From: a virus
IMG/VR virus record: IMGVR_UViG_3300037042_001180
Coordinates: 1-30,516 of that record
Strand: one strand, 5' to 3'
DNA length: 30,516 bases
The stretch's first letter is position 1. Each line of letters starts with the position of its first letter. Position numbers and translations under genes: made by a program. Positions 9,841 through 12,370 of the stretch are shown in pieces. The notes beneath the pieces are model-generated. The model worked only from the letters and a program-made list of their open reading frames with translations. It ran no database searches and was not told the DNA's origin.

Positions 9841-10116
9841 TTATTCTCCAGTGAGTTGTTCTTGAATCAATTGTCCCAGCTTTTTGTCGCGGGTGCGACC
9901 ATCAAATTTGATGCCAAGCTGGGCGGCTTTGGTTTCTAGCTCTGCGCGGGTTGGCGGTGCGTTGTCTGATGGTGCTGGGGAGGCTTGAATGGTAGCTTGC
10001 GCGGCCTGTTCGCGCAATAGGCGGTGGTTGATGCCGTCCAGGGGTTTGGAGGGTTTACGCTTCTTTGTTGGCTTTTTGTCTTTTGCGTATTTGGGCATCA
10101 AGATAATTTCTTTCAT
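9841..10116 (-). CDS. Small basic protein with C-terminal LEM/HeH-type motif
   Basis: The chosen ATG at 10116 overlaps the stop of the preceding 55-residue gene (TGATG), giving 91 residues. A GTG three bases further upstream and an ATG at 10098 (MPKYAKDKKPTKK) are alternatives. The N-terminus is strongly basic. The C-terminal 40 residues have TRAELETKAAQLGIKFDGRT and end KLGQLIQEQLTGE, which fits the helix-extension-helix fold found in LEM/SAP/Rho-N type domains of phage head proteins. It lies directly before the gp4-like gene. Nucleic acid binding in head completion is plausible but only inferred. Confidence 0.65.
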   Translation of the reverse strand: MKEIILMPKYAKDKKPTKKRKPSKPLDGINHRLLREQAAQATIQASPAPSDNAPPTRAELETKAAQLGIKFDGRTRDKKLGQLIQEQLTGE

Positions 10117-10283
10117 CACTTGGCTTTCTTTGGGGCTTTGCCTGGCTTGCCTGCTTTGAGTGCGGCTGTGCGTGCGGTGCTGAGTGCGACTGCAATGGCT
10201 TGCTTTTGGGGCATTCCGGATTTCACTTCTTTGGAAATGTTTTTACCGATTGATTTGGTGCTATAGCCTTGTTTCAGGGGCAT
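10116..10283 (-). CDS. Very small basic conserved protein (55 residues)
   Basis: ATG at 10283 is preceded by GGAG with 8 bases spacing, and the frame ends with TGA at 10116. The protein starts MPLKQGYSTKSIGKNISKEV, continues with SGMPQKQAIAVALSTARTAA, and ends in a Lys/Pro-rich tail. The KQAIAVALSTAR core is a motif that I know from short conserved phage and bacterial proteins of unknown function. It is between the homing endonuclease gene (10-base overlap) and the next small basic gene (1-base overlap). The overlap with the endonuclease implies that the endonuclease was inserted tightly between coat and this gene. Confidence 0.7.
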   Translation of the reverse strand: MPLKQGYSTKSIGKNISKEVKSGMPQKQAIAVALSTARTAALKAGKPGKAPKKAK

Positions 10284-11020
10284 GGTGTTTTCTCCAGTTT
10301 GCGTTTATCACGGGCTAATTGCATAGATGCCAGTCGCTTGGCCCTGATAACAGGGTCTTGCCACGAGCTTGTTGTTTTTCCAGAGATTTTCTGCTTTGTA
10401 CTTTCATCTCGTGCAGGTCTAGTTCGTTCTTTTGCTGCTTGGCTCATCTTGGCACGAGTTTCTGGAGTTCTCTTGTAATCTGCCAACTTTTGCTTGGTTG
10501 ATTCTGGCATTACATAACCAGATTTTATGCGTTCTTTCCATGCCAGTTTTGTTTGCATAGATCGTGCTAAACGCATCTCATCTGTCCATGTTGCCTTAAG
10601 GCTTTCAGTTACCTTCTTACGATAGTCTTGATTTTTCCAAAGTTCAATTGATGCCTTAACCCATGATGAAACGTCAGCATACTTTCTGCCTGTAGCCTTT
10701 GCAGAAATCTTCGCAGCAACATCTGGATTTTTGGATGGGGCGGTTTCACCACCGTAAGCAACGTTGTACCCTTGTGGAGCCAATGTTCCTAAAGCAATGA
10801 TCGCCACTTTTTCTGCCGCGTGCAATTCGGCTTGCGTCTCAAACTCAGCAGCCACCGTGATTGCAGGCTCACCGTACTTGCGCCACGCACAATGCACAGC
10901 CAATTGACTGTCACTTTTGACAGACCGCTTATGCTGTGCGATGCGGATATTCATATTGCGTGACGTTTGTCCGATATATGCCTTGCCCGACGAAAAAACC
11001 AACTTGTACAAAATGTGCAT
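10274..11020 (-). CDS. Free-standing GIY-YIG homing endonuclease
   Basis: The 248-residue protein has a GIY-YIG nuclease domain at about residues 1-95: LYKLV at 4-8 stands for the GIY element, AYIGQT follows at 14-19, then an Arg at 26, a Glu in ELHAAEKVAII and GYNVAYGGE at the end. The C-terminal part has repeated basic motifs (TKQKLADYKRTPETRAKMSQ, then STKQKISG) of the NUMOD3 type that bind DNA in homing enzymes. It is not inside an intron as far as can be seen and sits right behind the coat gene. A sampled 60 bases are 43 percent G+C. It would cut related phage genomes lacking the gene near this site. Activity is not proven. Confidence 0.88.
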   Translation of the reverse strand: MHILYKLVFSSGKAYIGQTSRNMNIRIAQHKRSVKSDSQLAVHCAWRKYGEPAITVAAEFETQAELHAAEKVAIIALGTLAPQGYNVAYGGETAPSKNPDVAAKISAKATGRKYADVSSWVKASIELWKNQDYRKKVTESLKATWTDEMRLARSMQTKLAWKERIKSGYVMPESTKQKLADYKRTPETRAKMSQAAKERTRPARDESTKQKISGKTTSSWQDPVIRAKRLASMQLARDKRKLEKTPCP

Positions 11021-11052
11021 ATCATGCTCCTGATTAACTCAAGAGCATGATA
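11020..11052 (-). promoter_or_regulatory. Hairpin sequestering the homing endonuclease ribosome binding site
   Basis: A perfect 10-bp inverted repeat (TATCATGCTC at the 5' side, GAGCATGATA at the 3' side on the minus strand) with a 13-base loop ends on the first base of the endonuclease start codon. The Shine-Dalgarno AGGAG spans the loop-stem border at 11031-11027. In this structure ribosome access would be blocked on long read-through mRNA from the coat gene. T4 homing endonuclease genes use the same kind of control. No U-run follows, so it is not an intrinsic terminator. Confidence 0.7.
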
Positions 11053-11072
11053 ACACATTAAGCGGTATTATC

Positions 11073-11095
11073 TTGTTTAATTATTGATTAAACAA
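11073..11095 (-). other. AT-rich inverted repeat over the coat stop codon
   Basis: TTGTTTAAT and ATTAAACAA form a perfect 9-bp dyad with a 5-base centre that covers the TAA stop of the coat gene. It is not followed by a U-run on the minus strand. It could protect the 3' end of coat mRNA or remain from insertion of the endonuclease gene just downstream. Function is unknown. Confidence 0.35.
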
Positions 11096-12370
11096 AAGTA
11101 TACCTGACATTTCCGGGTTTTTGTTGACCACGCCGAACAGGGTGTCCATGCGGTATTTGATGGTCATGCTGTCGATGTCGTAGAACTTTTGCATCACCAA
11201 CTCAATGCCTTGGTCGGTGCTTGCACGCATGACTGCGACACCAGCGTCCGAGGGCACTGCGTAGCGTCCGGGCAAGATTTCCAAGGAGTCACGCTGCCAG
11301 AACACGTTAACCGCTGCGGTGTTGACGTTCAGGAAGGTGATGGCGGCTGCGTCGGCTGCAATGGCCACTTCGACGTTTTTGTACTGCAACTGAGCGTCGG
11401 TTGGGGCCACGCCCTGAGCGCCGATGATCGGTGGAGTAATCACTAAGCTGGTGCCGCCGACGGGGACGCTCACGACACGGAATGTCTTGAGTTGGCCGGT
11501 GGATTGCTTGGTGATGTGGTGCACGGCGTAGACTTCAGCGATTGTGAAGGCGTCGCCAGCTTTGACGCTTTCCGAGGTGGTCACGGTGACGGTTTGGAAG
11601 CGGTTGTCAACGTTGATCTGGCCGCCGACGGAGGTCGATGTGGCTTGAGGAGCGTAGTTCGCTTGTGTGCCTGCACCGCTGGTGTCGATAGTGATGGCAG
11701 CGCCGCCAGCGGCTGCTGTCAGACGGTTGGCGTAGTCCATTTTGTAAGTCTCGAAGCCGGCGACCGTACCGACGTATGAACGCTCGTAGGCTTTGTCGGA
11801 CTTGGAGTTACCGAATGAACGTGTGGCAGCGGCCAAGTTACCGGCGAGGCCGTTGTAGTCGCGGCTGGAGAGGGCGATGAAGCGGTCGTAATCGGGCACG
11901 CCTTGCTCGTTCAGGATGGCGTCGCACAGGGCGATGTCGTCGTAGTCACCGGCAGCGGCAGCAATTGGCACGACCAAAGAACCGAGGCCAGCGGCTGAGT
12001 TCATGATGGCGATATTGATGTCGGATGCAAGTTTCTGTTTGGCGCTGTCACCGAGGCGACCTTCTTGCAGGGCGTCACGGAGTTCCAAGGTGGTCATTTC
12101 CCATGGCACTGTCTTGCTGAAGCCGAGAGTAGCGGGGACGGCCAACTGGGTCATGCCTTGGTAAGAACCGGCAATAGTTACGCCTGGCGTGCTGTCGATG
12201 GACTGCGCGATGTAAGGCTGTGGACGCCAAATGGTGTTGTTTGAACGCTCCATTTGTGTTTGGTCTGTGTTGTAGACCGAAACGTGGCGGGAAAGCACCA
12301 GTGCGTCTTGGAAGCCTTCGAGGAGGTCTTCAAAGGCGACACGTTCTTCTTTGCTAAATGCGTTTGACAT
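11081..12370 (-). CDS. Major coat protein (P22 gp5-like)
   Basis: This 429-residue protein is almost the same length as P22 gp5 (430) and belongs to the HK97-fold P22 coat family. Diagnostic matches are QMERSNNTIWRPQ at about residue 38 (gp5 has MQRSSNTIWMPV) and INVDNRFQTVTVT near 250 (gp5 has VNVDNRFATVTLS). A later NVNTAAVNVFW stretch matches the gp5 segment around NVFW. It forms the T=7 type procapsid with the scaffold encoded just upstream. The ATG at 12370 has a strong AGGAA site 8 bases ahead, consistent with the need for high expression. The gene follows the scaffold stop by 20 bases. Confidence 0.95.
   Translation of the reverse strand: MSNAFSKEERVAFEDLLEGFQDALVLSRHVSVYNTDQTQMERSNNTIWRPQPYIAQSIDSTPGVTIAGSYQGMTQLAVPATLGFSKTVPWEMTTLELRDALQEGRLGDSAKQKLASDINIAIMNSAAGLGSLVVPIAAAAGDYDDIALCDAILNEQGVPDYDRFIALSSRDYNGLAGNLAAATRSFGNSKSDKAYERSYVGTVAGFETYKMDYANRLTAAAGGAAITIDTSGAGTQANYAPQATSTSVGGQINVDNRFQTVTVTTSESVKAGDAFTIAEVYAVHHITKQSTGQLKTFRVVSVPVGGTSLVITPPIIGAQGVAPTDAQLQYKNVEVAIAADAAAITFLNVNTAAVNVFWQRDSLEILPGRYAVPSDAGVAVMRASTDQGIELVMQKFYDIDSMTIKYRMDTLFGVVNKNPEMSGILLFNQ

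Follow-up and report, generated by a model that had tools for sequence, protein, structure and literature searches.

The window, i.e., the whole stretch of DNA analyzed here, comprises the 30,516 nucleotides of IMG/VR virus record IMGVR_UViG_3300037042_001180. The locus of interest contains, in this order, a P22-like major capsid protein gene, a GIY-YIG homing endonuclease gene, a small gene for 55 amino acids, and a gene for the P22 tail accessory factor. Its features are as follows:

11081–12370, minus strand: P22-like major capsid protein gene (Pfam P22_CoatProtein, E 1.1e-85)
11064–11104, minus strand: second inverted repeat of the region, around the capsid stop codon (18-nt arms, 83%)
10274–11020, minus strand: GIY-YIG homing endonuclease gene, 248 aa (ATG start; open reading frame from 11020 to 10274)
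10292–10295, minus strand: GGAG within the endonuclease coding sequence, probable ribosome binding site (RBS) for the small gene
10116–10283, minus strand: small 55-aa gene, with its ATG within the last endonuclease codons

The 248-aa protein matches PHROG homing endonuclease families (E 1.9e-21 to 7e-4). It scores under the Pfam gathering thresholds itself, and members of its family match NUMOD3 and GIY-YIG (best 3e-5 and 1e-5, respectively), which upholds the identification as a homing endonuclease made in a preliminary description of this DNA. The GIY-YIG catalytic motif is present, with Y5, Y15-I16-G17, R26, H30, E70, and N86 near-invariant in the family alignment; a search of solved structures with the family profile gave chance-level matches only. 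We infer that this is a free-standing, mobile GIY-YIG homing endonuclease gene. The pairwise dN/dS of the gene (median 0.15) indicates that it is under purifying selection. Relatives (25 from IMG/VR plus further ones) are nearly all located directly behind the capsid gene, and in most carrying alleles the end of the endonuclease gene overlaps the ATG of the small gene.

The locus is also represented by empty alleles. In L030, the capsid protein and the downstream proteins are 99% identical to those of the window and the endonuclease is absent; its position is occupied by an intrinsic terminator, GGGGGGCTTCGGCCCCCCTTTTTTT, plus the AATAGGAG of the small gene, the latter replaced by GGAG in the window. 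In the comparison of L030 (3780–3860) with the window (10274–11080), endonuclease insertion goes together with loss of the capsid terminator. By one fixed rule, an intrinsic terminator was found behind the capsid gene in 71 of 71 empty alleles and in none of 34 carrying alleles, a few of the carrying loci being the same contig twice or near-identical. The cassette therefore appears to have replaced the capsid terminator, so that the endonuclease gene would lie within read-through capsid mRNA; this replacement, missed in the preliminary description, would explain the existence of such mRNA.

The flanks of the cassette bear on its arrival. At the 3′ end of the capsid gene, 36 nt (11081–11116) are identical to L004/L013, and the preceding 84 nt differ at 15–16 sites; against L030 the pattern is reversed, with 7 differences in the last 30-nt block and 0–2 in most upstream blocks. 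There is a similar short donor-type tract at the start of the small gene (10240–10283), such that tracts of ~36–40 nt flank the cassette on both sides. These tracts are the co-conversion footprint expected from homing and date the homing event to after the split from L030. At the capsid stop codon, the conserved inverted repeat at 11064–11104 (TTTAATCAATAATTAAA) is partly compensated in relatives (TTTAAT..ATTAAA to TTCAAT..ATTGAA); empty alleles often carry a different short inverted repeat there (CCAGTAATCTGG).

The Hairpin Over the Endonuclease Start

Before the endonuclease start, the minus strand reads ATCATGCTC..GAGCATGAT and then ATG; in full, the sequence 5′ of the ATG is AATGTGTTATCATGCTCTTGA GTTAA TCAGGAGCATGATATGCACATT. 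This region contains the following elements:

11012–11059, minus strand: complete hairpin of 21 bp, with a single bulged U at 11019 within the AUG
11039–11059, 11034–11038, and 11012–11033, minus strand: 5′ arm, loop, and 3′ arm, respectively, which fold together
11020–11052, minus strand: inner 10-bp perfect stem
11027–11031, minus strand: Shine-Dalgarno (SD) sequence AGGAG, within the 3′ arm
11018–11020, minus strand: AUG start codon, with A and G paired and U bulged
11047–11055, minus strand: extended -10-like element TGTTATCAT (TGnTATCAT), in the 5′ arm, with a predicted RNA start at ~11040

The preliminary description named a 10-bp perfect hairpin containing the AGGAG and the spacing to the ATG. 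That hairpin is present, but it is only the inner part of a 21-bp stem, about twice as long, which encloses the AGGAG, the AUG, and codons 2–3 of the endonuclease gene. The complete hairpin has a minimum free energy of -28 to -31 kcal/mol and is markedly more stable than shuffled sequence (z -5.1, or -8.2 in a fixed window of -50 to +15); among 207 control gene starts at the same loci, only 4 have z < -2.5. The inner stem is the sole perfect stem of ≥10 bp (loop ≤16) in the window; 0.9 such stems are expected by chance in 30.5 kb, so that one alone is not rare. The placement of the hairpin on the SD and start codon, and its full extent, are non-chance.

Two other roles for this structure were considered. 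Neither arm is followed on its 3′ side by a T run, which rules out an intrinsic terminator. Coupling to translation of the capsid gene is unlikely, because the stem starts 22 nt past the capsid stop codon and persists when the fold omits RNA as far as 15 nt past that stop. An Rfam scan of the window returned no match (e.g., no group I intron and no riboswitch).

The hairpin is conserved among relatives. Across ~23 distinct family sequences at the same site, the start region forms a hairpin (-25 to -32 kcal/mol) in which the SD, the start codon, or both are closed, with a single exception (L132, at the same site). In the main group, compensatory changes include A-U in place of C-G (L026) and C-G in place of U-A (L127), and stem pairs are changed to G-U in L009 and L011. 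In the alignment, 93.8% of stem cells are paired, versus 23–61% in slid controls, and four stem pairs have double changes; column shuffles match the observed pairing rarely, though not never, since much of the stem is invariant. Departures in the stem comprise 25 G-U on the mRNA strand versus one A-C, and this excess therefore points to a hairpin that acts as RNA structure rather than as a DNA palindrome. The strongest evidence of conservation comes from hairpins of unrelated sequence (L134/L138, with a GTG start; L027/L029; and L137) that keep the same register and pair the first codons: the hairpin sequence has been replaced wholesale at least three times with its logic kept. A translational lock on the endonuclease start is thus well supported, its structure shown by covariation in the aligned sequences. 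Given the buried SD and AUG, the conserved and covarying hairpin, and purifying selection (dN/dS ~0.15), the gene is very probably functional, as the preliminary description had also supposed.

A Promoter-Like Element in the 5′ Arm

The extended -10-like element TGTTATCAT is the only TGnTATNAT on the minus strand of the window (shuffle p 0.02). Its TATCAT is at -32 relative to the start codon, and the RNA start predicted near 11040 falls at the last bases of the 5′ arm, at the junction with the loop. For short RNAs starting 5–9 nt past TATCAT (the usual spacing), folding agrees with the preliminary expectation of an SD closed on long transcripts and accessible on one starting inside the hairpin: the predicted probability that the SD is unpaired is 0.001 in the read-through RNA and 0.57–0.71 in RNA starting in the loop. 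The element is conserved in the main group, and it is short of consensus; a convincing -35 was not found. The compensatory change in L127 weakens the -10 to TACCAT while the stem is kept, and the hairpin arms of L134, L137, and L027/L029 have no good -10. We consider an internal promoter in the 5′ arm of the hairpin to be plausible, although unproven. A conserved GATAAT is present upstream of the hairpin, a possible competing promoter that would yield RNA with the hairpin still in it.

Start-site hairpins with release by a short transcript are known for endonuclease genes of T4 and Aeh1 (PMC2988022). T4 segB, I-TevII, and gene e, refolded by the same procedure as positive controls, have late promoter elements inside the start-site hairpin (CATAAATA at -30 in segB and TATAAATA at -26 in I-TevII) or within the fold (TATAAATA at -34 in gene e). 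As in the window, the SD and start codon of T4 segB, I-TevI, I-TevII, and I-TevIII and Aeh1 mobE are closed on long transcripts (PMC2988022); in that set, a promoter element in the 5′ arm gives a short transcript lacking this arm, which for the present gene is a prediction. Those genes encode free-standing or intron GIY-YIG or HNH endonucleases, and the gene described here is of the GIY-YIG type. It differs from the T4 set in belonging to a P22-like phage, in having a sigma70-type extended -10 rather than TATAAATA, in the reach of the stem into codons 2–4 and its stability (-28 to -31 kcal/mol, versus -19 kcal/mol for segB), and in that the cassette appears to replace the intrinsic terminator that follows the major capsid gene. 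The T4 late genes soc, e, 49, and others likewise have an RBS-sequestering hairpin with a promoter inside; unlike the endonuclease gene, they are ordinary genes of the phage, transcribed from T4 late promoters. The segD-like seg43 of Aeromonas phage 25 likewise has a strong hairpin adjoining the endonuclease RBS (PMC2988022), although there the RBS is outside the stem and in the window it is inside. In the open literature searched, reports of such hairpins were confined to T4-like and Aeromonas phages.

The match to the T4 strategy proposed in the preliminary description is therefore partial. The SD and AUG are buried in the read-through RNA and the geometry resembles that of segB and I-TevII, but the T4-type late promoter TATAAATA that this strategy would entail has no occurrence in the window. 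For release from an internal start, TGnTATCAT in the 5′ arm is favorable, and three sister hairpins without such a -10 are not.

Start-site hairpins also occur in other GIY-YIG genes. In a non-random sample with starts called by rule or annotation, 17 of 55 GIY-YIG gene starts had z < -2.5, compared with the 4 of 207 control genes of the same loci; with the focal family left out, the figure was 10 of 48 (Fisher p 1.3e-5). Most of the genes surveyed have no start-site hairpin, which rules out a lock general to all GIY-YIG genes. For a -10 match in a fixed interval, the combined p was 6e-4 for structured endonuclease genes and 0.15 for controls; 4 of 14 structured genes were individually at p < 0.05, and unstructured endonuclease genes gave 0.02. 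L152 (TGGTATAAT adjoining a 10-bp stem), a case picked by eye, was left out of this test; a combined p of 9e-6 takes in eye-picked cases and is not relied upon. Start-site hairpins accompanied by a -10 were identified in L149 (TGCTATAAT at -35), L155 (TGTTACACT at -36; L155 and L164 are from a Rhizobium freirei genome), L165, which follows the major head gene of Xanthomonas phage PhiXhv-7 (TGTTAAACT at -37), and, as a borderline case, L168 of Pseudomonas phage MR14 (TATGAT at -32). The hairpins of L165 and L168 (12 and 15 bp) resemble that of the window in having the -10-like element placed for an RNA start near or in the loop, whereas their sequences are unrelated to it, the proteins are ~28–39% identical, and the phages are different. 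Scans with the L153 and L155 proteins yielded no new relatives.

Further GIY-YIG genes were observed, some of them at structural gene loci. In the crAss-like phage cr125_1 (L249, 600–690), such a gene immediately follows the major head gene and has an energetically weak, all-A/T hairpin (ATATAATATAA..TTATATTATAT) over the ATG. In Ackermannviridae (L167, L243, L244, and L251), GIY-YIG genes are located between the tail sheath and tail tube genes, immediately past an intrinsic terminator in L167, L244, and L251; L167 has a long stem over the start codon. In L216 (~960–1006), an 18-bp stem closes a GIY-YIG start codon, with the SD in the loop.

Proposed Operation of the Lock and Its Significance

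We propose that a mobile GIY-YIG gene inserted between the capsid gene and the small gene, replacing the intrinsic terminator. Read-through of the capsid mRNA would then transcribe the endonuclease region, as terminator loss suggests, and on this RNA the 21-bp hairpin would shut the SD, the AUG, and codons 2–3, such that the endonuclease would hardly be translated. A short transcript starting where the 5′ arm ends, under the control of the predicted extended -10 TGnTATCAT, would lack the 5′ arm and leave the SD open. The principle would be that of T4 I-TevI and segB, with a sigma70-type promoter in place of the T4 late promoter. Taken as a whole (lock, terminator replacement, and release from an internal start), we regard this account as probable.

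The account is least constrained at the step of release. The hairpin could be a permanent low-expression device with no internal promoter, in which rare opening on abundant capsid mRNA would give a leak that suffices for homing but is too small to do harm. The same fold is kept in L134, L137, and L027/L029 without a -10 in the arm, and loss of the terminator should make read-through capsid mRNA plentiful; however, the main group conserves the extended -10, no second copy occurs on the minus strand of the window, its position is exactly that of the late promoter in T4, and unrelated genes have such an element too, so that we hold this explanation to be possible but on balance improbable. Release might also be a matter of processing, if an RNase III-type or other nuclease cut the 21-bp stem and removed the 5′ arm. 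The 21 pairs with a single bulge come near the stem length that RNase III-type enzymes use. There is also precedent for processing, in that RNase E acts on T4-type endonuclease transcripts (PMC2988022). Yet no cleavage site is recognizable in the stem, and its inner sequence is constrained in a promoter-like manner in several families, which makes cleavage a quite unlikely route.

Two other explanations concern what the hairpin is for. It may stand in for the lost terminator, by exposing ~750 nt of untranslated RNA to Rho and thus keeping the downstream genes low, in which case the host phage would benefit from the lock no less than the endonuclease. The terminator is absent in every carrying allele and present in every empty one, and the downstream genes are separated from the capsid gene by the endonuclease gene; the small downstream gene nevertheless has its own GGAG, and we consider such a function unlikely. 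Alternatively, the inverted repeat could be a DNA operator for autorepression by the endonuclease, with the RNA fold incidental. I-TevI provides a precedent, as it represses its own gene at an operator overlapping its late promoter (PMC2988022), but here G-U pairs are confined to the mRNA strand (25 versus 1), and unrelated sequences keep both the fold and the start-codon register, including pairing with codons 2–4. We therefore give this explanation very little credence.

Previously described hairpin control of homing endonucleases comes from T4 and its close relatives. The translational lock and internal-start release proposed here would place the known T4 strategy in an unrelated and common freshwater phage group, at the capsid locus, with terminator replacement added. 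With carrying and empty alleles available as matched sets, the cost of the element, the idea of a promoter within the hairpin, and the effect of terminator loss on the genes downstream of the capsid gene can be tested directly. We tentatively suggest, as a possibility rather than an expectation, that GIY-YIG genes far beyond the T4-like phages have repeatedly evolved a general lock in which a sigma70-type promoter lies in the 5′ arm of an RBS-sequestering hairpin, combined in the P22-like group with obligatory replacement of the capsid terminator. If so, its reach would extend over P22-like, Xanthomonas, and Pseudomonas phages and a Rhizobium genome, and in the P22-like group the locked gene would also take over control of downstream read-through. 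Because the fold has been kept through wholesale replacement of its sequence, there is strong evidence that selection requires such selfish genes to be silent on the mRNA of the host phage.
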